Below, piece by piece: positions 34 through 24,875 of a stretch of 26,464 nucleotides of DNA. Every line of letters starts with the position of its first letter. Position 1 is the first letter of the stretch. The stretch is taken from the IMG/VR virus record IMGVR_UViG_3300029787_000273, positions 1 to 26,464 of that record; one strand, 5' to 3'. The notes under the pieces were generated by a model, which did not search any database, was not told the origin of the DNA, and saw nothing but the letters and a program-made list of their open reading frames with translations. Source of the stretch: a virus. A program made the position numbers and the translations under genes.

Positions 34-489
34 ATGGCACATTTTGCAAAAATTAATGATAATAATGAGGTTCTATCAATTCTTTATATTGATAATGAAA
101 AAATTCAAAATAGTGAGGGTGTAGAAACTGAATCTATAGGGCAACAATATTTACAAACACATAATAATTGGCCAGCTGAAAAATGGATTCAAACTTCTTA
201 CAACACAGAAAATAACACACGTAAGGACGGAGGAACTCCATTTAGAGGAAACTATGCGGGCATAGGTTATATTTGGGATCCAGAAAACAATATGTTTTTT
301 GGAGAAAAACCTTTTCCATCATGGGTAAAAAATACTTCAACTGCAAGTTGGGATCCACCTACAGCTGCACCAAATTTAACTGCAGAACAACAATCTCAAA
401 ACGAAGCTAATACTCACATGTGGACTTATGAGTGGGATGAAAACAATCAATCTTGGACATTAACAGATCTTGGCCCTGAAGTCCTGTAA
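34..489 (+). CDS. Conserved marine-phage virion/tail-fibre-associated protein
   Basis: This 151-residue protein has no assigned enzymatic role. It matches by eye a family common in cyanophages and other marine phages: an N-terminal MAHFAKI segment, a central NYAGIGYIWDPE stretch (about residues 74-85), then a KPFPSW motif (about 92-97) and a tryptophan-rich C-terminus. From my knowledge of the family, these genes usually lie next to tail-fibre genes, so a virion or adhesin accessory role is inferred, not shown. No signal peptide or membrane segment is visible. It is the first gene in the window and is followed by the oxygenase cassette. The ATG is preceded by AT-rich sequence with TATAAATT at 17-24 and no convincing Shine-Dalgarno. 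The family assignment is fairly sure; the function is not. Confidence 0.75.
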   Translation: MAHFAKINDNNEVLSILYIDNEKIQNSEGVETESIGQQYLQTHNNWPAEKWIQTSYNTENNTRKDGGTPFRGNYAGIGYIWDPENNMFFGEKPFPSWVKNTSTASWDPPTAAPNLTAEQQSQNEANTHMWTYEWDENNQSWTLTDLGPEVL

Positions 490-534
490 TTAAATATTGA
501 TTTTAAACTATAAATAAGTATATTCATTCTTAGA

Positions 535-1038
535 ATGAAAAAGAAAGTATTAACAGAACAAGCTATTTACAGTGACATAGTAAAGTTACCTAAAGGATAT
601 GAAGTTAATTCCTTAGAAATGTGTCAAAATATTTTTAAATGTTTTTACAAAAATAATAACGCTGTTTTTTGTAAATCTTGGGATCAATTAAATAGATACA
701 TAATTGAAAATGTTCAATTAAGACATCAAATAAAATTAGTAAATAAAAAAACTTGGGGAAATATTTTTACTCCAAATGAAGAATATACTTGTTTGTCTCC
801 TGTTGATCCGGTTGATTTAAAGAATTCTCCTGACTTTACATGTATATATGGAATTAATACTGAAGAATGTTATGTGACTATTTATTATGATGATAATAGA
901 AGAAAAGGTAGAAGTTTTAAAATGCCATTAAAACATAATTCTTTTATTATGTTTCCTTCAACTAATATATACACAATATCTAATAATCAAAAATCTTCTT
1001 TAAATTTTGTACAAACCATCACTTTTGAATTATTTTAA
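535..1038 (+). CDS. Hypothetical protein, possible triad-less relative of the neighbouring oxygenases
   Basis: This 167-residue protein is the first of seven tightly packed small genes. Its C-terminal 60 residues (about 107-167) read like the second half of a double-stranded beta-helix: strand-like YVTIYYDD, then NSFIMFPS, then SLNFVQTITFEL. That resembles the IVFPS and IFPG strands of the downstream oxygenases. I see no HxD or HxH pair, and no histidine after the FPS strand, so the usual iron site is missing. Alternatives are a cupin-like structural protein or an unrelated family. The start ATG follows an AT-rich 45-base gap with no clear Shine-Dalgarno; TATAAATA lies at 509-516. Only a three-base gap separates its stop from the next gene, so they are almost certainly co-expressed. 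Confidence 0.6.
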   Translation: MKKKVLTEQAIYSDIVKLPKGYEVNSLEMCQNIFKCFYKNNNAVFCKSWDQLNRYIIENVQLRHQIKLVNKKTWGNIFTPNEEYTCLSPVDPVDLKNSPDFTCIYGINTEECYVTIYYDDNRRKGRSFKMPLKHNSFIMFPSTNIYTISNNQKSSLNFVQTITFELF

Positions 1039-1041
1039 AAT

Positions 1042-1671
1042 ATGCAATTCGATAATTATTATTGGTATTTTAAGTCAGCTATACCTGAAAAAATATGTGA
1101 TGACATAATTAAATATGCATTATCTAAAAAAGAAACTATGGCAAAAACTGGTACTTATGGTGATAAAAAATTAACAGAAAAAGAAATTATAGATTTAAAA
1201 AGAAAAAGAAATTCTGATTTAGTATGGCTTAGTGATACTTGGATATATAAAGAAATACATCCATATGTACACAGAGCTAATCAAAATGCTGGGTGGAACT
1301 TTGAATGGCATAGATCAGAAGCTTGTCAATTTACAAAATATAAATTAAATCAATACTACGATTGGCATTGTGATAGTTGGAATAAACCCTATGAAAAAAA
1401 AGGACCTGAACAAGGTAAAATAAGAAAACTTTCAGTAACTTGTCAATTAACTGATGGATCAGAATATGAGGGTGGTGAATTAGAATTTGATTTTAGAAAC
1501 TATGATCCAAATATGAGAGAGGAATCTAAACATTTAAAACAAGCAAAAGAAATATTACCAAAAGGTTCTATCATTGTATTTCCTTCATTTGTTTGGCATA
1601 GAGTTAAACCTGTTACGAAAGGAGTAAGATATTCATTAGTTATGTGGAACCTTGGATATCCTTTTAAATAA
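1042..1671 (+). CDS. 2-oxoglutarate/Fe(II)-dependent oxygenase, PKHD/prolyl-hydroxylase-like
   Basis: A 209-residue protein with the pattern of the 2OG-Fe(II) oxygenase superfamily (PF13640-like), which uses iron, O2 and 2-oxoglutarate to hydroxylate a substrate. The predicted iron ligands are H109 and D111 (DWHCDSW) and H186 (FVWHRV). R196 in GVRYSLV would bind 2-oxoglutarate. The strands between them are typical: LSVTCQLT, a GGELEF turn, and GSIIVFPS before the distal histidine. The whole protein is essentially one catalytic domain, like PKHD-type hydroxylases. Phage members occur in cyanophages and pelagiphages, but their substrates are mostly unknown. No Shine-Dalgarno precedes the ATG, which lies three bases after the previous stop, suggesting reinitiation. 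The superfamily call is strong; the substrate is unknown. Confidence 0.88.
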   Translation: MQFDNYYWYFKSAIPEKICDDIIKYALSKKETMAKTGTYGDKKLTEKEIIDLKRKRNSDLVWLSDTWIYKEIHPYVHRANQNAGWNFEWHRSEACQFTKYKLNQYYDWHCDSWNKPYEKKGPEQGKIRKLSVTCQLTDGSEYEGGELEFDFRNYDPNMREESKHLKQAKEILPKGSIIVFPSFVWHRVKPVTKGVRYSLVMWNLGYPFK

Positions 1672-1672
1672 A

Positions 1673-2308
1673 ATGGAAAAAGTAGATTATTTTAAAACAC
1701 CTATTTGGGTAGAAGACAGACCTGAATATTTAAAATCTTTGATAAGACACTCTAATGAATATATTAAAGCTGCAAAGAAGATGGACTTTAATAAAGAATA
1801 TATAAAAAAGTTTGGTGATTTTGGAACATCTTATCATTCAACACCACTTACAATAGACAATAATTTTTTAGATTTTAGAAAATATGTTGGTCAAAAATCT
1901 TGGGATTTTTTAAATGAACAGGGTTTTGATATGGAACAGTATTCTGTTATGTTTTCTGAAATGTGGGTACAAGAGTTTTCAAAAAAAGGTGGTGGTCATC
2001 ACTCTGCACACATACATTGGAATCAACACGTATCAGGATTTTATTTTTTAAAGTGCAGTGATAAAACATCATACCCAATATTTCACGAACCAAGAACAGG
2101 TGCACGTGCAACCAAATTAAAAATGAGGCCTAGCGAAACAATACTTAATGGAAATGATTTAGTTCACTTTAGACCTAAACCTGGAAATTTAGTTATTTTT
2201 CCTGGTTATTTAGAGCATGAGTTTGTAGTAGATCACGGTATAGAACCGTTTAGATTTATTCATTGGAATATACAAGCTGTGCCAAAAGAAATGGCAAAAA
2301 AATTTTAA
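1673..2308 (+). CDS. 2OG-Fe(II) oxygenase-like protein, PF13759-type, HxH variant
   Basis: This 211-residue protein resembles the 2OG-FeII_Oxy_5 group. Residues 109-126 contain SAHIHWNQHVSGFYFL, matching the family's histidine-rich strand before an SG-x-YL motif. FHEPR follows at 137-141, then GNLVIFPGYLEHEF at 171-184. Predicted metal ligands are H113, H115 and H182, with R194 in the 2-oxoglutarate position. The usual aspartate of HxD is a histidine here. I chose the ATG at 1673 because it falls one base after the previous stop; an in-frame ATG at 1652 would lie inside the upstream gene. The substrate is unknown. In cyanophages such genes often sit near tail fibres, which fits this neighbourhood. 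The call is firm at superfamily level. Confidence 0.85.
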   Translation: MEKVDYFKTPIWVEDRPEYLKSLIRHSNEYIKAAKKMDFNKEYIKKFGDFGTSYHSTPLTIDNNFLDFRKYVGQKSWDFLNEQGFDMEQYSVMFSEMWVQEFSKKGGGHHSAHIHWNQHVSGFYFLKCSDKTSYPIFHEPRTGARATKLKMRPSETILNGNDLVHFRPKPGNLVIFPGYLEHEFVVDHGIEPFRFIHWNIQAVPKEMAKKF

Positions 2309-2937
2309 TGGAAAGTAAATTAATACATTTTAGTAATGTTGGTTTTTTAGAACAAAAACTTCCAAAAGAAGTTTTAGATAGATTAAGAACTTATATTAAA
2401 GATAAAAAACACAAAAATAACCACACTTTAGCAGGTAATATAAAATCTTCATATGAACTGGTGGATAAGGATAATTGGTTTTTTCAAAAAATTTTGTTGT
2501 TTAGCATTAGTGATTTTGAAAAATACTGCGTAAAAGAAGCTTTGGTTCCTAGCGTATTAACAAAAAATTGTGCTTATGAATTAAATAGATTTTGGGTAAA
2601 CTTTCAAAAAAAATATGAGTTTAATCCTGTTCACGATCATGGTGGTATTTATTCTTTTGTAATATGGTTAGACATACCTGCAGATTATGAAAAAGAAAAA
2701 AAGTTATCTTTTTCTAATCATTCTAATTCACCATTTCCAAATACATTTCAATTTTTATACACTAATTCTTTCGGTAAAATAGCAACTCATCAATATCATT
2801 TATCTCCAAAAGACGAAGGAACCATGTTGTTTTTTTCTAGTAAAACTCAACACACCGTTTATCCTTTTTATACTTCAAATAAAACAAGGGTTAGTATTTC
2901 AGGTAATATCTATTTAAACCCAGAAAGAATACTATGA
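2308..2937 (+). CDS. 2OG-Fe(II) oxygenase-like protein, HxH variant
   Basis: A 209-residue protein. The core NPVHDHGGIYSFVIWLDIP spans about residues 106-124 and resembles the oxygenase strand seen in T4-like cyanophage 2OG enzymes. Predicted ligands are H109 and H111, the distal H172 in TQHTVYP, and R184 in TRVSISGN for 2-oxoglutarate. GTMLFFSS just before H172 corresponds to the IVFPS strand of the relatives. An insert of about 35 residues between the core and GTMLFF is rich in N, S, F and H. I place the start at 2308, where TAATG overlaps the previous stop; an in-frame ATG at 2263 is internal to the upstream gene and less likely. There is no Shine-Dalgarno, so translation probably depends on coupling. 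The substrate is unknown. Confidence 0.8.
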   Translation: MESKLIHFSNVGFLEQKLPKEVLDRLRTYIKDKKHKNNHTLAGNIKSSYELVDKDNWFFQKILLFSISDFEKYCVKEALVPSVLTKNCAYELNRFWVNFQKKYEFNPVHDHGGIYSFVIWLDIPADYEKEKKLSFSNHSNSPFPNTFQFLYTNSFGKIATHQYHLSPKDEGTMLFFSSKTQHTVYPFYTSNKTRVSISGNIYLNPERIL

Positions 2938-3416
2938 GTTACAAGCATTGTTTTCAATATACTATTTTTGAGGAAGAAATTAATATAACTTCTAAATTAT
3001 TAAAAGAAATAAAATCATATTCATTAACCAAAGATGAAACAAATAATAATAACTTTCTTAAAAAAGATAAAAAATTATTAAGTATGATTAAAAAAAATTT
3101 ACAAGATATATTTAAGAAACATAAATTAAATATTATAGATTGTTGGATTCAATTATATTTAAAGAATGATTATCATAGTATACACACACATTTTGCAACT
3201 CAAAAAGATTATTCCTTTGTATGGTTTATTGATGGAGATAAAAACTCCTCTCCTATTATATTCCATGAAATAGGTTATCCCTTAATTAACAATAACAGAC
3301 AAATAAAATTTGATTTTAAGCCCGGCACACTATTAATATTTCCAGGTTTTATGCCTCACGAAGTTCCTTTAAATAAAAGTAACAATAGATTAATTGTAAG
3401 TGGAAATGCAATATGA
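2934..3416 (+). CDS. Short 2OG-Fe(II) oxygenase-like protein, HxH variant
   Basis: A 160-residue protein and the smallest of the cassette with a complete ligand set. SIHTHF places H84 and H86. YSFVWFIDG follows as the next strand. GTLLIFPGFMPHEVP gives the distal H142, and R152 in RLIVSGN would contact 2-oxoglutarate. The N-terminal 70 residues are lysine-rich and largely helical. Its pattern is closest to the gene just upstream, suggesting duplication and divergence within the array. It shares an ATGA overlap with the upstream stop and another with the downstream start, so translation is likely coupled. A weak AGAAAG lies upstream of the ATG. The substrate is not deducible. Confidence 0.82.
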   Translation: MSYKHCFQYTIFEEEINITSKLLKEIKSYSLTKDETNNNNFLKKDKKLLSMIKKNLQDIFKKHKLNIIDCWIQLYLKNDYHSIHTHFATQKDYSFVWFIDGDKNSSPIIFHEIGYPLINNNRQIKFDFKPGTLLIFPGFMPHEVPLNKSNNRLIVSGNAI

Positions 3417-4078
3417 GTTTTAAAAAATTAAAATATACTGTAATAAAAAAAGCTATATCCGAAGATTTAGCAATATATCTTTACAATTATTTTTTAATGA
3501 AAAAACAAGTCTACGATACTTGTATACAATATCGTTATTTAAGTCCTTTTGAAACTATAAATGGTTTTTACGAAGGTAAAGACGATCAAATACCAGACAC
3601 ATTTGCTATGTACTCAGATGCAGCAATGGACACTTTAATGTTAAAGTGTCAACCAGTAATGGAAAAAACAACAGGATTAAAATTACAACCATCTTATACC
3701 TATGCTAGAATTTACAAAAAAGGTGACATATTAAAAAGACACAAAGATAGGTTTAGTTGTGAAATATCAACCACTCTTAATTTAGGTGGAGACAATTGGC
3801 CAATATATTTAAGTCCAAATGAAAATGTTGGGATACCGGATTGGGAAAAAATAACGAGTTCTAGCAAAGCAAAAGGTATTCAAATAAATTTAAATCCTGG
3901 TGACATGTTAGTTTATAGAGGTATGGAATTAGAGCATTGGAGAGAAAAATTTAAAGGGAAAAGTTGTGGACAAGTTTTTTTACATTACAATAATTTAAAG
4001 ACTCCAGGTTCAAGATTTAATATTTTTGATAAGAAAAAACATTTAGGATTGCCTGCTTGGTTTAAAGAAAAAGAATGA
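3413..4078 (+). CDS. 2OG-Fe(II) oxygenase, phage P4H-like, HxD type
   Basis: This 221-residue protein resembles a 2OG-Fe(II) oxygenase family that recurs in marine T4-like and other phages. YARIYKKGDILKRHKDR (about 97-113) provides H110 and D112, followed by a STTLNLGGDNWP strand. GDMLVYRGMELEHWRE provides the distal H175. The expected arginine about ten residues later is not obvious: the segment reads KGKSCGQVFLHYN, so K183 or Q187 may take that place. In this family the residues before the distal histidine are commonly of the form GxELxHWRE. It starts in an ATGA overlap with the gene upstream. The substrate is unknown; collagen-like prolyl hydroxylation of a virion protein is only one possibility. 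Confidence 0.83.
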   Translation: MSFKKLKYTVIKKAISEDLAIYLYNYFLMKKQVYDTCIQYRYLSPFETINGFYEGKDDQIPDTFAMYSDAAMDTLMLKCQPVMEKTTGLKLQPSYTYARIYKKGDILKRHKDRFSCEISTTLNLGGDNWPIYLSPNENVGIPDWEKITSSSKAKGIQINLNPGDMLVYRGMELEHWREKFKGKSCGQVFLHYNNLKTPGSRFNIFDKKKHLGLPAWFKEKE

Positions 4079-4560
4079 AAATTATAGATAACTTTTTACC
4101 TAAAGAAGAATTAAAAGAATTACAAAATATAATGATGGGACCTAATTTTCCATGGTTCTATAATAATTCAGTAGCATTTAACAAGGTTCTTAATGATCCC
4201 TTTGAATATTATTTTACACATAATTTTTTTACGGATGTTTTACAAAGCGGACATAATCATATTATTGAAAGAATAATATTATCAAAATTTAAATGGTTTT
4301 CTATTAAAAGAATTAAAGGAAATTTATATCCAGCAACAAATAAAAAAGTAACATATGAATATCACACAGATTATAAATTTAAACATAAAGGTCTAATATT
4401 TTCTTTAAATACATGTAATGGAGGTACAATATTATCTGACGGTAAAGTAATTAAATCAGTAGCTAACAGAGCATTATTTTTTGATCCTTCTAAAAAACAC
4501 TCATGTACTAATACTACAGATACAAAAGGTAGGTTTAATATAAATATTAATTATGTGTAA
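4075..4560 (+). CDS. 2OG-Fe(II) oxygenase, HxD type, last of the array
   Basis: A 161-residue protein with a compact 2OG-Fe(II) oxygenase pattern. YEYHTDY gives H97 and D99. The downstream strand GLIFSLNTCNGGTILSDG carries the GGT turn often seen in P4H-like enzymes. NRALFFDPSKKHSC gives H142, and R153 in GRFNINI would bind 2-oxoglutarate. The N-terminus begins KIIDNFLPKEELKEL, the usual helix that opens P4H-like phage enzymes. It overlaps the upstream gene by ATGA and ends in TAATG shared with the next gene. It differs clearly from its neighbours in sequence, so the array is not a recent tandem duplication. The substrate is unknown. Confidence 0.82.
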   Translation: MKIIDNFLPKEELKELQNIMMGPNFPWFYNNSVAFNKVLNDPFEYYFTHNFFTDVLQSGHNHIIERIILSKFKWFSIKRIKGNLYPATNKKVTYEYHTDYKFKHKGLIFSLNTCNGGTILSDGKVIKSVANRALFFDPSKKHSCTNTTDTKGRFNININYV

Positions 4561-4874
4561 TGAAATTGTTTATAGAAAAACATTTAAGTGATGTTGTTTA
4601 CCCTGTAGAAAAAGAAGGTTGGGATGTAAGAGGTATTCTTAAAAACAGATTGAATCAAAATTTTAAATTTGATTTAAGGCCTATTAAAAATAATGGTAAA
4701 ATAGGAAGCTTTTATACTAAAGCAGATAAAATGGTTTTTGATATGAAAGATCAATATATTATTGTCGATATAGAAGAATTACATCAATATTTAAGAGAAA
4801 ATAAATTAAAAGATGTTCATTTACAGGATTTGATATCTAAGTTAGATTGGAATATAATACTACCAAAAATTTAA
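4560..4874 (+). CDS. Hypothetical phage protein
   Basis: I do not recognise a function for this 104-residue protein. It is mixed alpha/beta with basic patches (KNRLNQNFKFDLRPIK) and an acidic or leucine-rich stretch near residues 70-92. It has no signal peptide, membrane segment or metal-binding motif. It starts in a TAATG overlap with the last oxygenase and ends 20 bases before the large tail protein gene, so it links the two groups and is probably co-translated with the oxygenase cassette. It lacks the HxD and distal His pattern, so it is not another oxygenase. A virion-assembly or enzyme-accessory role would be a guess. Confidence 0.6.
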   Translation: MKLFIEKHLSDVVYPVEKEGWDVRGILKNRLNQNFKFDLRPIKNNGKIGSFYTKADKMVFDMKDQYIIVDIEELHQYLRENKLKDVHLQDLISKLDWNIILPKI

Positions 4875-4894
4875 AAACCTTATATTATAACAAT

Positions 4895-6805
4895 ATGGCA
4901 CTTAAAAAAGTCAAATTTGCAGCAGGTTTCAACAAACAAAGTGTACCCTCAGCTCTTCCAGGACAATGGGTGGATGGAGATTTTGTGCGTTTTAGATACA
5001 CGGCTCCTGAAAAAATAGGTGGTTGGAAACAATTAACTCAAGCTAATGAAACAATTCCCGGAGCAGCACGAGCTCAATTAGCGTTTACTAGTTTAAAAGG
5101 TGAAAGATATACGGCCATTGGAACATCACAAGGTTTATTTTTATATTATGGTGAAGCGTTTTACGATATCACTCCTTTAGATACAGCAATCACTGGAGCT
5201 ACATTTGATACATTTTCTAGTCAAAATAATGTTACAGTAAACAAAGTTGGTCATGGATTAGAAGTTGGAAGATACGTAACGTTTACATCAGTTACACCAC
5301 CCACAGGATATGTGGCAACAGATTTTACTGACGGAGCTTTTGAAATATTAACTGTTCCAGACAATGATACTTTTACTATTCAAATGAGAGTCAATGCTTC
5401 TGGCGCTGCCTCTGCTTCAGGATCAGCTAGTATTAATCCATACGTTGAAGTAGGTCCTACTTTTCAAACATTAGGGTATGGCTGGGGAACGTATCTTTGG
5501 GGGGACTCTACATGGGGTACTGAACGAGGAACTAGTAATGTAATATTAGATCCAGGTAACTGGTCATTAGATAATTTTGGTGAAGTATTAGTTGCAACTA
5601 TATTTAACGGTAAAACTTTTACATGGGATGCGGGAGCATCTAATCCAAGAACAATTAGAGCTTCCATATCCACAAGTGGATTTGAAACTACAAACAATCC
5701 AACTGCTAGTAGATTTACTTTAGTGTCCGACAGAGATAGACATCTATTTCATTTTGGAACAGAAACCACTATTGGCAATTCTTTAACTCAAGATCCTATG
5801 TTCGTAAGATTTTCTAACCAAGAAGACCTTAATACTTATTTACCTAAAGCTACTAATACCGCGGGAACATTTAGATTAGATACAGGAAATAAAATTACTG
5901 CAGCTTTACAAGGTAAAGATTATGTATTTGTATTAACTGATTTAGCCGCTTATGTTATTCAATTTGTTGGTCCCCCATTTACATTTAGTGTTAGACAAGT
6001 TGGAACTAATTGTGGATGCATTGCTCAACACGCAGCTAGTTATGTTAATGGCGCGGTATATTGGATGTCGGGTGAAGGTGGATTTTTTATGTATGATGGT
6101 ACAGTTAAAGCTTTACCATGTCTTGTAGAGGATTTTGTATTTACTACACGTAATGGAGATTTAGGAATTAACTATGATTCGGCTGCTACAGTTTTTTCAG
6201 CACCCAACACTTTATACACAGAAGTAAATTGGTTTTATCCTAAAGCAGGATCTTTACAAATAGATCGATGTGTAACCTATAATTATCAAGAAAATTGTTG
6301 GACCACTAGTTCTTTAGACAGAACTACTTATCAAGATCAAGGTGTTTTTAATTTACCTTATGCAACAGATTATGAAACAACAAGCACTCCAGTTTTTTCT
6401 GAAATATCCGGCATTACAAATAAATACGGAGCATCAATATATTATGCTCATGAAATAGGAACTGATCAAGTTAATAGTTCAGGAACTACAGCGATTGCAG
6501 CATTTATTAGATCAGGAGATTTTGATATAGACGACGGAGAATTATTTATGTCTATGAAAAGATTTATGCCTGACTATAAATTTTTAGTTGGTGATTCAAA
6601 AGTAACTTTGTTTATTTCTGACTTTCCTTCTGATATTCAAACAGGGTCACCACTCGGACCTTTTACAATAACCAGCACTACAGAAAAAGTAGATACTAGA
6701 GCACGAGGAAGATTATTATCATTAAAAGTAGAAAACGATGCTGCAGGACAAACATGGCGTTATGGTAGTTTTAGAATGGATGCTCAACCAGACGGGAGAA
6801 GATAA
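4895..6805 (+). CDS. Large beta-rich tail/connector structural protein (gp10/gp12-like candidate)
   Basis: A 636-residue protein that opens with a segment widespread in marine and other podovirus-like phages: MALKKVKFAAG, then DGDFVRFR and PEKIGGW before residue 50. The rest is rich in aromatic, Gly, Thr and Asp residues in short strand-like blocks, for example GTYLWGDSTWG and GGFFMYDGTV. This suggests a beta-propeller or beta-barrel structural protein such as the P22 gp10 packaged-DNA stabiliser or the T7 gp12 nozzle. The family assignment rests on architecture and context and was not tested by a profile search. I chose the ATG at 4895 because the M-A-L-K-K start is typical of the family; an in-frame ATG at 4847 lies inside the upstream gene. 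The coding stop overlaps the next ATG as TAATG. Confidence 0.6.
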   Translation: MALKKVKFAAGFNKQSVPSALPGQWVDGDFVRFRYTAPEKIGGWKQLTQANETIPGAARAQLAFTSLKGERYTAIGTSQGLFLYYGEAFYDITPLDTAITGATFDTFSSQNNVTVNKVGHGLEVGRYVTFTSVTPPTGYVATDFTDGAFEILTVPDNDTFTIQMRVNASGAASASGSASINPYVEVGPTFQTLGYGWGTYLWGDSTWGTERGTSNVILDPGNWSLDNFGEVLVATIFNGKTFTWDAGASNPRTIRASISTSGFETTNNPTASRFTLVSDRDRHLFHFGTETTIGNSLTQDPMFVRFSNQEDLNTYLPKATNTAGTFRLDTGNKITAALQGKDYVFVLTDLAAYVIQFVGPPFTFSVRQVGTNCGCIAQHAASYVNGAVYWMSGEGGFFMYDGTVKALPCLVEDFVFTTRNGDLGINYDSAATVFSAPNTLYTEVNWFYPKAGSLQIDRCVTYNYQENCWTTSSLDRTTYQDQGVFNLPYATDYETTSTPVFSEISGITNKYGASIYYAHEIGTDQVNSSGTTAIAAFIRSGDFDIDDGELFMSMKRFMPDYKFLVGDSKVTLFISDFPSDIQTGSPLGPFTITSTTEKVDTRARGRLLSLKVENDAAGQTWRYGSFRMDAQPDGRR

Positions 6806-6987
6806 TGACGAAAAGACTAAACATTAAAAAAGCAATTAAGAAACCAGGTTCTTTAAGAAAAGCTTTAAATATTAAAAAAGGTGAAAAGATACCTTTAGCT
6901 AAATTAAATAAAGCAGCTAAAGCAAAAGGCAAATTAGGACAAAGAGCTCGTTTTGCTAAAACATTAAGAAAAATAAATAGAGCATAA
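6805..6987 (+). CDS. Very small basic phage protein
   Basis: A 60-residue protein of highly basic composition, mostly Lys, Arg, Ala and Leu. The C-terminal half, AKAKGKLGQRARFAKTLRKI, follows the pattern of a short helical phage domain found in many tailed phages, where arginines and a hydrophobic face recur after a KGKLxxRA core. The function is unsettled; binding to packaged DNA or to an acidic virion partner is plausible from charge alone. It has one of the better Shine-Dalgarno sequences in this region (GGGAGA upstream of the ATG). It sits in TAATG overlaps with both neighbours, within the structural operon. Confidence 0.7.
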   Translation: MTKRLNIKKAIKKPGSLRKALNIKKGEKIPLAKLNKAAKAKGKLGQRARFAKTLRKINRA

Positions 6988-7151
6988 TGGCTAAGTTAAC
7001 TAATTATATACCAGAACCTCAACAAGACTATGATGTAGAAAATCAAAGACAAATTATTGAGTCTATGACAACTATGAAACAACAATTAAATTTTGCTTTT
7101 CAAGAAGATTTAAAAAACGAACAAGATGCTTTTAATTATTTTTTATCATGA
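6987..7151 (+). CDS. Small hypothetical phage protein, 54 residues
   Basis: A short open frame I read directly from the sequence: it starts MAKLTNYIPEPQQDYD and ends AFNYFLS before TGA. The ATG overlaps the preceding stop as TAATG, and its own TGA overlaps the next start as ATGA. Those two couplings, the lack of any other explanation for 160 bases in an otherwise gapless operon, and phage-like composition all support a real gene. It is mostly helical, glutamine-rich and acidic, with a likely amphipathic coiled helix over residues 17-50. Function is unknown; short proteins like this beside tail genes may be virion or assembly factors. Confidence 0.7.
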   Translation: MAKLTNYIPEPQQDYDVENQRQIIESMTTMKQQLNFAFQEDLKNEQDAFNYFLS

Positions 7152-7498
7152 CAATACAATATAAAAATCAAGGTTTTAAACAGGTTGACACAAATAAAGC
7201 TACAGTGCTTACTTGTCCTACTACTGGGGCAATTATAGTTAAAAGTGTTTATTGTGCTAACAATGATGCGTCATCATCTATTTTAGTAAACATGAATTTG
7301 GTAGATTCATCAGATTCAAATACTGAATATGAATTTTTTAGAGATGATGTGCCTGGTAAATCACAAATAAATGCTTCACCTCAAGGCTTGAATTTAGAAG
7401 CAGGAGATGCTATAACTGTGCAAGCAGCTACAGGCAGTAATAAAATACAAGGCCTAATAAGTTATGCTTTAATAAACAGAGAGAATGAAAACGGATAA
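7148..7498 (+). CDS. Small conserved phage protein, probably structural
   Basis: A 116-residue protein of a type I associate with marine phage structural regions. Residues 1-60 contain alternating hydrophobic strands (TTGAIIVKSVYCAN, SSILVNMNLVDS) and the C-terminus has GLNLEAGDAITVQAA, a beta-sandwich-like edge. The pattern suggests a small all-beta virion or tail protein, perhaps a head-decoration or fibre-interacting domain. It starts in an ATGA overlap and ends overlapping the next gene by 14 bases. No catalytic motif is visible. A sigma70-like TTGACA lies within it at 7185-7190 but has no credible -10. Function is inferred from context only. Confidence 0.65.
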   Translation: MTIQYKNQGFKQVDTNKATVLTCPTTGAIIVKSVYCANNDASSSILVNMNLVDSSDSNTEYEFFRDDVPGKSQINASPQGLNLEAGDAITVQAATGSNKIQGLISYALINRENENG

Positions 7499-7679
7499 TT
7501 TGACAAAAATAGATTGCACTACAATAACAACGTGGCGTAATACAAAGACAGGTGAAATATATAAAGATAAAAAAGAAGGACCTGATATTGCGCAGGATGT
7601 AACTGTTCAAGTATCTCCTAAAGGACTAGAGGTTCTTCAGAAAGTGATGCAGAAACAAAATGAAAAACCAAAACCCTAA
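7485..7679 (+). CDS. Small hypothetical phage protein
   Basis: A 64-residue protein that I do not recognise by function. It contains a short strand-rich N-terminus (CTTITTWRNTKTGEIY), a charged middle and a helical, lysine-rich C-terminus ending QKQNEKPKP. A GAGAG Shine-Dalgarno-like run precedes the ATG. It overlaps the gene before it by 14 bases and the glycosyltransferase after it by 20 bases, so it belongs to the same transcript. There is no membrane segment or known motif. Its position between a small structural gene and the glycosyltransferases is the only clue to its role. Confidence 0.6.
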   Translation: MKTDNLTKIDCTTITTWRNTKTGEIYKDKKEGPDIAQDVTVQVSPKGLEVLQKVMQKQNEKPKP

Positions 7680-8598
7680 AGGCGGAACTGAGTTACAGTT
7701 AGAGTTTTTAAACAAGTACGTTAAAAAAGAGTTATTAGATCAAGTACAAATTTGTACTAGTGTTCCTGGTAAAATACCTACTGATCCAAATAAAGTAAAT
7801 ATACTTTGGCAAAAAAATTCTTGGGACCAACCTAACTTATATCCATGGTTTAAAAACAAAGCTAATCATCACAAGTATGATTGGTATGTATTTAATTCAC
7901 ATTGGAACTATGAAAAATTTAGAATGATGTTTGGTTTACCGTGTCACAAATGTTTAGTAATTAAAAACGGAATAGAAAAAATAAGAAAAGCTAAACCTTA
8001 TGAACAAAACAAACCTATAAAAATTATTCATCAAAATACCCCTTGGAGAGGACTAAGTGTATTATTAGGTGCAATGCAATTAGTAAAGAATCCACTTATT
8101 AGTTTAGATGTATATTCATCTACAGAAATATATGGAAAACAATTTTATGAACAAAACGATCATAATTATACAGCACTTTATAAACAAGCAAGAGAATTAC
8201 CTAATGTAAATTACATTGGTTATAAACCTAATGAATACATTAGAGAAAATATTCATAATTATAATATGTATGTATATCCAAGTATCTTTGAAGAAACATC
8301 ATGTATATCCTTATTAGAAGCTATGGCTGCTGGTCTTTACTGTATTACAACTAATTATGGAGCTTTGTTTGAAACAGGCGCAGAGTTTCCTATGTATATA
8401 CCCTATGATATTAACTACAGAAATTTATCTGAAAAATTTGCTTATGGTATTGATGCAGCTGCTATCACTTTGCATGATCCTGCTATTCACCGTCATTTAG
8501 AAGATCAATCTAAGTATGTTAATAATTACTACAACTGGACTAAACAAGCTACGTCTTGGGTCCGATTTTTACAAGGAGCAATTAATGCAAAAAAGTAA
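7660..8598 (+). CDS. Glycosyltransferase, GT-B fold, GT4-like
   Basis: This 312-residue protein resembles family-4 glycosyltransferases, which move a sugar from an NDP donor to an acceptor. The N-terminal PKGGTELQ loop resembles the GGTE opening of that group. The C-terminal domain begins near IKIIHQNTPWRGLSVLLGA, and residues 211-220 (EETSCISLLE) contain the donor-binding E-x7-E motif (E212 and E220). AMAAGLYCITTNYGALFE follows, as expected for that domain. It is shorter than a full GT4 enzyme (about 350-400 residues), so part of the N-terminal domain appears reduced. It sits directly upstream of a GT-A enzyme, so the pair may act in sequence on one acceptor: virion, host envelope or DNA. 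Substrate and linkage cannot be read. Confidence 0.82.
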   Translation: MKNQNPKGGTELQLEFLNKYVKKELLDQVQICTSVPGKIPTDPNKVNILWQKNSWDQPNLYPWFKNKANHHKYDWYVFNSHWNYEKFRMMFGLPCHKCLVIKNGIEKIRKAKPYEQNKPIKIIHQNTPWRGLSVLLGAMQLVKNPLISLDVYSSTEIYGKQFYEQNDHNYTALYKQARELPNVNYIGYKPNEYIRENIHNYNMYVYPSIFEETSCISLLEAMAAGLYCITTNYGALFETGAEFPMYIPYDINYRNLSEKFAYGIDAAAITLHDPAIHRHLEDQSKYVNNYYNWTKQATSWVRFLQGAINAKK

Positions 8599-9547
8599 TA
8601 CGCCCTCGGGCAAAAACAATGAACCCATCTGGTTTAATAAAACAGATTCGAGCAAAATTGTAGAACACAATAAAGATACTTATCAAACTATAAAGACTAA
8701 CAAAGTAGATTCGGAGGTTACAGAAATTAATATAGGAAATGTATCCCCGTACAAAATCATGGTATGTACACCATGTCATAGTGAAGTCACTATGCATTAC
8801 ACACAAGCTGTTTTAAAATTTCAACAAGCTTGTTTAAGAAAAAATATATTAGTAAGTTTTACTTTATTAAAATCTTCTTTAGTTACACAAGGTAGAAATA
8901 TATGTGTTGCTAGTATGTTAAATCATGAAGATAACTATACTCATTTATTATTTGTAGACTCTGATATTGATTTTAATCCACAAACTATATTTAAAATGTT
9001 AGAAAAAGATAAAGATATTATAGGTGTCCCTTATCCTATGAAAACTTTAAGTTGGGATAAAATGTGGAGAAGATTGCATGAAAAAAAAGATGCTATACAA
9101 GGGCCAGATGATTTAATGAATTCTGGTTATACTTATCCAGTTAAAACAGATAATCCTAATGAGGTAGAGGCCCATGATGGTGTAGTAGAACTTACTCATA
9201 TTCCTACAGGATGTATGTTAATTAAAAGAAAAGTATTAACTGATTTAATAGAAGCTAATCCAGACCTTGAAATATTTCAACCAACTATAATAAACGGTAA
9301 AGAAGTTAAACAACCTAATATGTATAATTTATTTGACACTTTACATGACCCTGAAACCAAAAGATATTTTGGTGAAGATTTTGGTTTTTGTCAAAGATGG
9401 CGGAATATAGGTGGTAAAGTATATGCATATATTAATGATTTTATTACTCATGTAGGTGAGTATTCTTATTGTGGTCGTTTTAGAGATGATTTGTGGCAAG
9501 GTAGTCGCCCCCTCAAATCTATTGACGAGCCTAAAAAAATCAAATAA
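8585..9547 (+). CDS. Glycosyltransferase-like protein, GT-A fold
   Basis: A 320-residue protein with a GT-A pattern. The DxD-type metal site is LLFVDSDIDF at 121-130 (D125, D127). Upstream of it are the CTPCHS opening strand and VTQGRNI, and downstream are KDIIGVPYPMK, TGCMLIKRKVL and YFGEDFGFC (E274-D275). A late histidine at 299 (THVG) completes a family-2-like arrangement. I chose the ATG at 8585 because AAGGAG sits about six bases upstream, the best Shine-Dalgarno in the area; an earlier in-frame ATG at 8516 lies inside the upstream gene. It is clearly related to the protein at 24165-24875. The N-terminal 55 residues are probably unstructured. Acceptor is unknown. Confidence 0.82.
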   Translation: MQKSNTPSGKNNEPIWFNKTDSSKIVEHNKDTYQTIKTNKVDSEVTEINIGNVSPYKIMVCTPCHSEVTMHYTQAVLKFQQACLRKNILVSFTLLKSSLVTQGRNICVASMLNHEDNYTHLLFVDSDIDFNPQTIFKMLEKDKDIIGVPYPMKTLSWDKMWRRLHEKKDAIQGPDDLMNSGYTYPVKTDNPNEVEAHDGVVELTHIPTGCMLIKRKVLTDLIEANPDLEIFQPTIINGKEVKQPNMYNLFDTLHDPETKRYFGEDFGFCQRWRNIGGKVYAYINDFITHVGEYSYCGRFRDDLWQGSRPLKSIDEPKKIK

Positions 9548-22548: not shown

Positions 22549-24168
22549 ATGGAAGAAAAATTTATAGATATATTTACAGGTCTTAAAAGAGACTATGGTT
22601 ATGCTGATATCAATTCAGCATTTAAAGATCCTGCTACAGGAAAATTAAAATTAAAATATGGTTGGGCAGCTAAAGAATTATTAGAGTCAGACTATCTCGA
22701 CCATCTTAGTGGTAAAAAATCTATAGGTATACAACCATGCGATGATGATGGATTAGCAAAGTTTGGAGCGATAGACATAGACTCTGATGAATATGATAAC
22801 TTTGATCTTAGAAAATATTTAGAAATTATAGACAAAAAAAATATTCCAGTAGTCCCAGTTAAATCTAAAAGTGGTGGACTCCACATATATGTATTCTTTA
22901 ATCAACCAGTTAAAGCTAGCTTTGTAAGAAATTTTTTAGATAAATTATTATTTACTTTTGACCTTAAAGCTTCAACAGAAATATTTCCAAAACAAACTCA
23001 ATTAGGAATAGGTTCAGATAGTAAACCTATCAATGGTAACTTTATAAACTTACCTTATTATAATCGTAATGAAAGAGTGGGTGTGAATTTAGATGGGACT
23101 GAGTTTACTTTTGAACAATTTATAAAAGTCGTCGAGGCTAACACAAAAAGCAAAGAAGATCTAGAAGAATTTGCTACAGAACTTATGAGATTAGAACTAA
23201 CTGGTGGTGCAGATGAATTTGTCGATGGTCCAGTTTGTTTACAAAGATTATCTAAATCTAAATTAGATGATTACAGAGATCGATTTATTTATAACTACAT
23301 GGTGTTTGCTAAAAAGAAATATCCAGACAACTGGGAAGAAAAACTTTTAGAGGGTGCAAGAAATTATATTGTTTACGATAACATATGGGGGGATGAAAAA
23401 GTAAAACAAAAAATTAAAGCATATAAAAAAGATACCGCAGGCCATACTTGTTCGGAAGAACCTATTAATAGTATGTGTGTTAAATCAGAATGTTTAAAAA
23501 GAAAATTTGGTGTAGCCTCTGATAAAGTTAAAAAGTTTCCTGCACTATCTGCATTAATTAAAATAGATTATTCTCCTGAACCAGAGTTTAGATTCACTGT
23601 ACATTACAATGACAAAGTAGAAGGTGAAACTACGCAGCAAATAATTGCTAGAGATATTAATTACATTATGGACCAAGAAAAACTTAGACGTTTAATTGGA
23701 GCTCACACCCCTATTCCACCACCACGAATCAAGGGTGATGACATGCAAAATATTTTAGATAACCTATGGCAAGGAATGAAAACAGAAAAAGCTCCTCCAG
23801 GTACCTCACCAAAAGAAATACTTCATAAACATTTAGATGATTATATTCATGGTGTACCAGCAGTAAGTGACGCTTCGTTTAGAAGTGGTAGCACATTAAT
23901 TGATGATGGTTTTGCTTATTTTGTATTTGATCCTTTCTATAATTTTTTAAAGAATAAAGAATGGAAATCTAAAATAGATAGGACAGGGCAAATGATGATG
24001 GATTTTTTTACTGCAGAACTTAGGAGTCTTAAACGATATCCTAAAAAAGAATCAGAAAAAAAATCACATAACCCAGTCAGGTGTGTTAAAATATCAATGA
24101 CTCATTTTGAAAGAGAAGAAAACCCTGTTGAAATAATACCAATGAAAAGCAAAAAGGATATACTATGA
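22549..24168 (+). CDS. Archaeo-eukaryotic-type (TOTE-like) DNA primase
   Basis: A 539-residue protein. The catalytic part resembles the AEP-superfamily TOTE primase domain: GAIDIDSDEY at about 73-81 supplies acid residues D76 and D78, SKSGGLHIYVFF at 106-117 gives the S/H of motif II (H112), and GNFINLPYYN at 163-172 is a further typical signature. Four cysteines at C230, C301, C310 and C315 (GPVCLQRL; CSEEPINSMC; SEC) could bind zinc or an Fe-S cluster. The C-terminal half (about 330-539) is unassigned. It makes primers for phage replication, presumably with the downstream helicase. It follows the palindromic leader, and its TGA is shared with the next ATG. It lacks an obvious helicase domain, which fits with separate helicase genes nearby. 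Confidence 0.85.
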   Translation: MEEKFIDIFTGLKRDYGYADINSAFKDPATGKLKLKYGWAAKELLESDYLDHLSGKKSIGIQPCDDDGLAKFGAIDIDSDEYDNFDLRKYLEIIDKKNIPVVPVKSKSGGLHIYVFFNQPVKASFVRNFLDKLLFTFDLKASTEIFPKQTQLGIGSDSKPINGNFINLPYYNRNERVGVNLDGTEFTFEQFIKVVEANTKSKEDLEEFATELMRLELTGGADEFVDGPVCLQRLSKSKLDDYRDRFIYNYMVFAKKKYPDNWEEKLLEGARNYIVYDNIWGDEKVKQKIKAYKKDTAGHTCSEEPINSMCVKSECLKRKFGVASDKVKKFPALSALIKIDYSPEPEFRFTVHYNDKVEGETTQQIIARDINYIMDQEKLRRLIGAHTPIPPPRIKGDDMQNILDNLWQGMKTEKAPPGTSPKEILHKHLDDYIHGVPAVSDASFRSGSTLIDDGFAYFVFDPFYNFLKNKEWKSKIDRTGQMMMDFFTAELRSLKRYPKKESEKKSHNPVRCVKISMTHFEREENPVEIIPMKSKKDIL

Positions 24169-24875
24169 CCGATAAAAAAATACCTACTGTGCATGTATCG
24201 ATGCCTTGCTACGATACCATGCAAGTACCAACTTGTTTAAGTTTATTAAAACTATTTGATAAATTTACTGCAGCTAAAATTAAAACAAATATATCTACAT
24301 TTAAATCACCTTACGTAGGTTATTCAAGAAATATATTGTCCGCAATATTTTTAGAATCTAATTATGATTATCAATTATTTGTTGATGCTGATGTAAGTTT
24401 TGAACCTGAAGTTATCGGATCAATGATCATGGCTCAAAAAGATTTTATTTGTGCTCCTTATAGAAAAAAGACTCATGATAATTCTGTGTCTTATTCTGTA
24501 GCTTTTCCTGATTACAAAAATATCAATATTGATAAATCAGGAATCACGGAAATTATCGGAGGGCCAGCAGGACTAACATTAATCCATAGATCTGTTTATA
24601 AAAAATTAATTAAACAATACCCACAATTAAAAATTAAATACGCTTCTGGAATATCTGATGAACAAAAAAAATATTTATATAATTTTTGGGAAAATACTTT
24701 TGATTCAAAAGAAGGTGCTTGGTATGGAGAAGATGTTTCTTTTTGTAGTCTAGCGCGACAAGCGGGATTTAAACTTCATGCTCTAGTTCATTGTGAGGTT
24801 GGACATCACGGTACATTTAACTTTTCTGGAAAGTTTGTAGATACATTTTCGCCGAGTGATGAAAAAAGTAACTAA
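24165..24875 (+). CDS. Second GT-A glycosyltransferase-like protein
   Basis: A 236-residue protein that is a shorter relative of the enzyme at 8585-9547. Shared features include the SMPCYD opening, YSRNIL, LFVDADVSFE (D74-D76), KDFICAPYRKK, GGPAGLTLIHRSV and WYGEDVSFC (E189-D190), and the HH pair at 214-215. The GT-A fold and a metal-dependent DxD are probable. It lies between a primase and a UvrD-like helicase, which is unusual for a structural or envelope glycosyltransferase. It starts in an ATGA overlap with the primase stop. A role in modifying DNA bases is possible but no base-modifying partner is seen; protein or host-surface modification is equally plausible. Confidence 0.82.
   Translation: MTDKKIPTVHVSMPCYDTMQVPTCLSLLKLFDKFTAAKIKTNISTFKSPYVGYSRNILSAIFLESNYDYQLFVDADVSFEPEVIGSMIMAQKDFICAPYRKKTHDNSVSYSVAFPDYKNINIDKSGITEIIGGPAGLTLIHRSVYKKLIKQYPQLKIKYASGISDEQKKYLYNFWENTFDSKEGAWYGEDVSFCSLARQAGFKLHALVHCEVGHHGTFNFSGKFVDTFSPSDEKSN

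Follow-up and report, generated by a model that had tools for sequence, protein, structure and literature searches.

Why would a phage carry six consecutive genes for 2-oxoglutarate (2OG)-Fe(II) oxygenase-like proteins among its tail genes? Marine phages carry few accessory genes more often than such oxygenases, which have mostly been read as host-metabolism genes. The question is raised by IMG/VR record IMGVR_UViG_3300029787_000273, a 26.5-kb virus record (all 26,464 nucleotides of which are hereafter called the window) for which an initial annotation had described six such genes in a row. We refer to the six plus-strand open reading frames (ORFs) at 1042-4560 as W1-W6, to the ORF at 535-1038 as p, to that at 34-489 as F and to that at 4895-6805 as T. 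At the protein level, T shares 70% identity with HTVC027P gp75, and W1, W2 and W5 share 68-77% with proteins of HTVC023P and 023Pt_psg01; we therefore assign the window as a fragment of an HTVC023P-type pelagiphage (a virus of SAR11 bacteria). In it, seven consecutive genes, six with iron ligands and one without, belong to oxygenase families or share the oxygenase fold, and lie between an adhesin/F module and T:

F: 34-489, + strand; fibre-associated gene, 151 aa (phrog_7759, E 7e-34)
p (or W0b): 535-1038, + strand; putative ligand-less pseudo-oxygenase, 167 aa (AlphaFold2 (AF2) model, PDB fold matches)
W1: 1042-1671, + strand; predicted 2OG-Fe(II) oxygenase, PKHD/PiuC-like (PF13640, 57.6 bits; phrog_61, E 2e-36)
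W2: 1673-2308, + strand; predicted 2OG-Fe(II) oxygenase, HxH type (PF13759, 51.6 bits; phrog_81, E 7e-20)
W3: 2308-2937, + strand; predicted 2OG-Fe(II) oxygenase, HxH type (PF13759, 37.5 bits; phrog_81, E 1e-28)
W4: 2934-3416, + strand; predicted 2OG-Fe(II) oxygenase, HxH type (PF13759, 27.3 bits against a cut-off of 27; phrog_81, E 8e-28)
W5: 3413-4078, + strand; 'ferrochelatase' family, predicted 2OG-oxygenase-fold protein, HKD...H with Gln187 (phrog_2954, E 1e-48; AF2 model)
W6: 4075-4560, + strand; 'DNA endonuclease V' family, predicted oxygenase-like, HTD...H...R (phrog_274, E 3e-39; profile match to the W4 family)
Small ORF: 4560-4874, + strand; 104 aa, without family match (overlaps W6 by 1 base; missing from several relatives)
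T: 4895-6805, + strand; podovirus tail/stabilisation protein (phrog_3287, E 7e-80; right-hand limit of the cassette in relatives)

Seven consecutive oxygenase-like genes

W1-W6 directly adjoin one another, and at four of the five junctions start and stop codons overlap by 1-4 nt. Each protein has the spaced iron ligands that had been described: H109-x-D111, H186 and R196 in W1; H113-x-H115, H182 and R194 in W2; H109-x-H111, H182 and R194 in W3; H84-x-H86, H142 and R152 in W4; H110-x-D112 and H175 in W5, with Gln187 where Arg is expected; and H97-x-D99, H142 and R153 in W6. The facial triad is of the HxD...H type in W1 and W6, and of the HxH...H type in W2-W4. Every iron-ligand position is kept in 91-100% of homologues (35-276 sequences per family), and the ligands are invariant in W3 (100/100), W4 (35/35) and W5 (226/226 for H, D, H and Q). 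The Arg about ten residues past the distal His is present in exactly the five proteins for which it had been claimed (W1-W4 and W6, 88-100% conserved by family). An I-F-P-like strand before the distal His, also part of the initial annotation, is literal in W1, W2 and W4, but not in W3, W5 or W6.

Database comparisons agree with these motifs in most cases. All six proteins match PHROG families with E-values from 1e-20 to 1e-49, W1 in phrog_61 and W2, W3 and W4 together in phrog_81 ('2OG-Fe(II) oxygenase'). The proposed hidden Markov model searches place W1-W4 above the curated Pfam cut-offs of PF13640 or PF13759, but leave W6 below (PF13640, 16.2 bits). In addition, W2 scores 56.2 bits with TIGR02466, which is under its cut-off, and W1 matches PiuC structures (E 2e-5). 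Purifying selection acts on all genes (ratio of non-synonymous to synonymous rates, 0.05-0.28). W1-W6 are thus an array of predicted 2OG-Fe(II) oxygenase-like genes that is not due to chance, and from sequence and fold we infer that they encode Fe(II)/2-oxoglutarate hydroxylases.

The seventh member, p, was not among the six genes first described and has no family match by sequence. However, its AF2 model (predicted local distance difference test score, pLDDT, 85; predicted template-modelling score, pTM, 0.81) finds 2OG-oxygenase folds in the top ranks of the PDB (Z 12.0-13.4), with AlkB also among the matches. The p family has no conserved His; in 54 of 54 sequences Tyr146 stands where the distal His would be. 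We therefore regard p as a probable conserved pseudo-oxygenase without the Fe-ligand triad, which on its model would have the fold alone in common with oxygenases. Relatives of p are encoded in at least 586 IMG/VR stretches, and p is seen only alongside one type of adhesin (glycine-rich; see below). With p on one side and the small ORF at 4560-4874 on the other, the fibre-linked F and the tail gene T do flank W1-W6 as annotated, but not immediately.

The 'ferrochelatase' and 'endonuclease V' partners

Two of the six proteins carry PHROG labels that do not suggest an oxygenase. Structure prediction, which had been proposed as a check and was run on W5 among the six, gave an oxygenase fold: the AF2 model of W5, built from 50 homologues (pLDDT 77, pTM 0.80), matches 2OG oxygenases in the PDB by Foldseek (top match Pseudomonas putida prolyl-4-hydroxylase, E 7e-7), and a structural aligner (VIA) gives Z 13-14 with SnoN, FtmOx1, P3H1, P4H and PHD2. 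The Pfam ferrochelatase model has no match at E<=1 among 50 members of the W5 family, and a sequence search of W5 against the PDB returned nothing meaningful. W5 is therefore modelled as having a 2OG-oxygenase fold, with HxD...H ligands placed by sequence, and we reject its identification as a ferrochelatase. As for W6, comparison with the W4 family (hhalign, 96.5%, E 7e-10) puts the ligands in register, so that W6 is predicted to be an oxygenase-like protein; its endonuclease V label finds no support here. Profile-profile links of p and W5 to other families failed (0.6%, 5%, 0.7% and 3%), probably because the alignments are shallow (effective number of sequences, 1.5-2.0), and fold claims for both therefore rest on the fold search.

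The ferrochelatase label is long-standing and in wide use. A W5 homologue is carried by 156 phage records, many of them labelled ferrochelatase, including S-PM2. The family was entered as a 'ferrochetalase domain' in one study (PMC3037559), and interpretations in others build on the ferrochelatase label (PMC9599517, PMC11561400). Since both partners appear oxygenase-like, one support is removed for a heme/iron story that concerns a phage group counted among the most abundant in the ocean. Cyanophage S-SCSM1 gp124, labelled 'ferrochelatase', joins a W5 domain and an oxygenase domain of W1 type in a single protein, and the phrog_3531 alignments in PHROGs point to the same fusion. The fusion in gp124 would link the activities of W5 and W1.

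At the pattern stringency used, we found no cellular source of W5 among 84,980 genomes, which yielded five contigs. Three of these (L357, L358 and L359) have an adhesin-F-oxygenase-T context around the W5 homologue, L360 has a tail gene and L361 an oxygenase array; given this phage context, all five look like phage DNA in single-cell or metagenome-assembled genomes. L357-L360 are filed as Maricaulis or Pelagibacteraceae genomes, and carry a phage tail gene together with oxygenase genes. L361 (NZAX01000069.1, filed as a Flavobacteriaceae metagenome-assembled genome) has 11 consecutive genes at 271-7225, nine of them with oxygenase-family matches, and is probably misbinned phage DNA. Genes labelled 'minor coat protein' (phrog_1644, DUF6445/PF20043) also occur within oxygenase arrays, at L361:5324-6040 and as S-SCSM1 gp130 (L363:6902-7633). 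Because the latter shows an HHD...H pattern, an oxygenase fold may be concealed by this label too.

A variable and mosaic cassette

The initial annotation treated six such genes in a row as unusual. Using profiles made for this analysis, we annotated the ORFs of about 345 loci, and sampled 33 contigs that were found through T alone and have at least 4.5 kb of upstream sequence each. All 33 have 2-10 oxygenase genes before T, in runs of 2-8, and S-SCSM1 has 24 2OG oxygenase genes (PMC9602691), so a run of six is hardly exceptional among these phages. About a dozen contigs repeat the gene order of the window, F-p-1-2-3-4-5-6, for which a search of viral contigs had been proposed. In one contig (L184) the order is F-p-6-1-2-4-6-a-b-5-b-6-T, with ten consecutive oxygenase genes that all match phrog_61/81/274/2954.

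The set of genes differs greatly between relatives. Among 70 non-redundant F-p loci there are 32 different compositions (the commonest core being 1-2-5), and across related cassettes the content ranges from 1 to 10 genes, with members gained or lost singly. Identity also varies along a single locus: in L012, W1-W6 are 87-97% identical to those of the window, p is 66% identical and T 48%. The cassette is thus variable, mosaic and under purifying selection.

W2, W3 and W4 each form their own clade across phages (SH-aLRT, an approximate likelihood-ratio branch support, 97-100); the groups in this tree were pre-sorted by profile, and the tree is hence supportive rather than independent. W2 is 73% identical to HTVC023P gp66, versus 33% over 90 residues to its neighbour W4. 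Because the clades are separate and W2 is closest to its HTVC023P orthologue, we reject a recent tandem duplication of W2-W4, in agreement with the old divergence first proposed.

Association with adhesin genes

In relatives (151 loci as well as other phage families), F directly follows a glycine-rich (Gly-rich) adhesin gene (PF21722). The adhesin gene of the window itself lies just off the window edge; a 98.6% identical contig has it (L007:1488-2543). Of 183 loci whose upstream sequence is long enough, 170 have a Gly-rich or tail-collar adhesin at most three ORFs upstream. The strand of the cassette goes with the type of adhesin: with Gly-rich adhesins (PF21722), 150 cassettes are forward and 3 reverse, whereas with collar adhesins (PF07484) none is forward and 17 are reverse (Fisher P 1e-20, which is overstated because the loci are related). 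There are accordingly two architectures, a forward-strand cassette behind a Gly-rich adhesin, to which 130 of 131 tabulated p-bearing loci belong, and a reverse-strand cassette with a tail-collar adhesin and without p. Collar-type adhesins are accompanied by a distinct small gene of about 120-130 aa (MATNANWTV...; L003:7718-8107, L109:379-747, L123:3874-4233), which is apparently the counterpart of F.

The association recurs in other phages, T4-like pelagiphages and cyanophages among them. HTVC008M and HTVC033P combine a Gly-rich adhesin, F and oxygenases, and cyanophages S-SSM5 and S-TIM4 combine a Gly-rich adhesin, W1, W5, F and further oxygenases.

Possible roles of the cassette

The position of the cassette, its variability and its recurrence beside adhesins suggest the adhesin, the fibre or F as substrates. 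We tentatively favour the hypothesis, to which we give somewhat less than an even chance, that this is an adhesin-linked oxygenase cassette whose enzymes modify an adhesin or fibre of the phage itself. The oxygenases would be made together with the tail proteins and would hydroxylate residues of the adhesin or fibre (in the window type, the Gly-rich PF21722 tip) during its folding, which could tune adhesin stability or receptor fit. p might act non-catalytically, holding the adhesin, F or the enzymes as a partner. Modification patterns would then differ between gene sets, such that the locus varies like a host-recognition island. In one study, Fe(II) oxygenases are among the commonest identifiable genes in marine phage metaviromic islands, and are placed under host recognition (PMC3909814). 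In another, on phages evolving on sub-optimal hosts, mutations arose in tail genes and in S-TIM4 ORF23, a 2OG gene adjacent to one for a tail fibre (PMC6224464). A broader version, that interchangeable hydroxylase sets tied to one of two adhesin types, with a dead adaptor member in the Gly-rich type, write a modification pattern onto the receptor-binding protein and so diversify host recognition post-translationally, is speculative and on balance unlikely. We found no paper testing the substrates of these phage enzymes.

Several observations weigh against the idea that the phage modifies its own adhesin. What ties the cassette to adhesins is their physical proximity in related phages, which linkage alone could explain, and W5 and W1 are found with both adhesin types. 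Bellamy, Melnitz, Greip and HTVC025P have a Gly-rich adhesin and F without neighbouring oxygenases, so modification would not be obligatory. Adhesin sequence and gene content show a significant pairing overall (partial Mantel r 0.19, P 0.001), but without window-type loci the signal is lost (r 0.07, P 0.11), and there is none in 18 p-anchored loci; we have dropped this fine-scale pairing as support, as it is not robust to locus removal. In addition, W5 residues 110-114, which bear two of the ligands, have pLDDT below 50 in the model, and W5 lacks the usual 2OG-binding Arg, with the invariant Gln187 in that position. 2OG anchors at other positions are known within the oxygenase superfamily, and W5 may have one.

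The main rival is reprogramming of host metabolism, which we consider possible but not probable. The genes would be auxiliary metabolic genes acting on host metabolites, proteins or 2-oxoglutarate (nitrogen signalling, PiuC-type iron uptake), and the adhesin locus would merely tolerate insertions. Cyanophage genes have been read in terms of 2OG and NtcA (PMC3037559), phage genes as auxiliary metabolic genes with 'ferrochelatase' (PMC9599517, PMC11561400) and others as PiuC-like (PMC13184970); auxiliary metabolic genes are known from hypervariable host-recognition loci (PMC7029224), and W1 does match PKHD/PiuC. However, the 'ferrochelatase' partner underlying the heme/iron reading has a predicted oxygenase fold and no ferrochelatase match, a diversity of enzymes is needless for draining 2OG, and the linkage to the adhesin module recurs across several phage families.

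It is distinctly unlikely that the enzymes modify the host surface or a polymer together with downstream glycosyltransferases, so as to exclude super-infecting phages or release progeny. Glycosyltransferase-like genes are indeed present in the window (7660-8598, 8516-9547 and 24165-24875), and surface alteration has been proposed for glycosyltransferases of pelagimyophage host-recognition clusters (PMC7029224), but the cassette shares a compact operon with tail genes, not with the glycosyltransferases. AlkB/TET-like modification or repair of DNA or RNA bases is less probable still: although the fold matches of p include AlkB, phrog_274 bears an endonuclease label and phage 2OG genes have been proposed to act in DNA repair (PMC3037559), matches of AlkB type come with this fold in general, the label gives way to oxygenase matches of W6, and the genes sit in a tail operon. 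Equally improbable is the multi-step pathway first envisaged, six enzymes acting in order on one substrate, which six adjacent, mostly overlapping genes, the frequent 1-2-5 core and the W5-W1 fusion could suggest, but which, if obligate, is disfavoured by a gene set so variable in size and composition, with members that come and go singly. The other reading offered at first, enzymes that each have their own targets, may apply.

Relation to known systems

Co-located oxygenases in HTVC023P-type phages, and large sets in cyanophages, have already been published (PMC9599517, PMC9602691). What is new is that the 'ferrochelatase' partner is predicted to have an oxygenase fold, that there is a conserved putative pseudo-oxygenase, and that the cassette keeps a constant place behind an adhesin gene of either of two types, its strand switching with adhesin type. 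In the literature covered, which left most subscription journals outside its scope, we found no description of an oxygenase-like 'ferrochelatase', of the pseudo-oxygenase or of adhesin-type-linked architectures. Modification by the phage of its own receptor-binding protein is offered as a concrete, testable alternative, and the conserved, ligand-less p as a clear entry point for biochemistry.

The closest system is that of HTVC023P (gp65-67) and 023Pt_psg01, which shares with the window its phage group, its site and the families W1, W2 and W5. Wittmers et al. (2022; PMC9599517) described eight distinct oxygenase families close together 'although not adjacent' in HTVC023P-type pelagiphages, with 1-2 ferrochelatase partners; in the window, by contrast, the genes are strictly adjacent, the partner itself is predicted to be oxygenase-fold and a ligand-less member is added. 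In HTVC008M (gp68-72), S-SSM5 and S-TIM4, W1, W5 and other oxygenases likewise adjoin a Gly-rich adhesin and F, but these are myoviruses in which p was not detected and order and strand differ. S-SCSM1, whose oxygenases have been discussed as reprogramming host metabolism (PMC9602691), also has a divergent set, partly among tail-fibre genes, but spread over the genome and with the W5-W1 fusion. The metaviromic islands resemble the window in having Fe(II) oxygenases as frequent members, which are classed there under host recognition, whereas the accessible text describes no array, adhesin type or mechanism (PMC3909814). Finally, phage oxygenases structurally similar to the human prolyl hydroxylase EGLN3 have been reported (PMC12774648). 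Prolyl 4-hydroxylases and P3H1 have the double-stranded beta-helix modelled for W5 and p, and HxD...H as in W5, but the identity is 6-17%, and nothing points to a prolyl substrate.

Other features of the window

Promoter and terminator scans of the window gave chance-level results only, and no RNA families or tRNAs were found. The ORF at 4560-4874, between W6 and T, is kept in just some of the relatives that have the same cassette. The three glycosyltransferase-like genes comprise one PF00534 gene and a pair of phrog_1574 genes some 15 kb from each other, and possibly act on the virion or the host surface.

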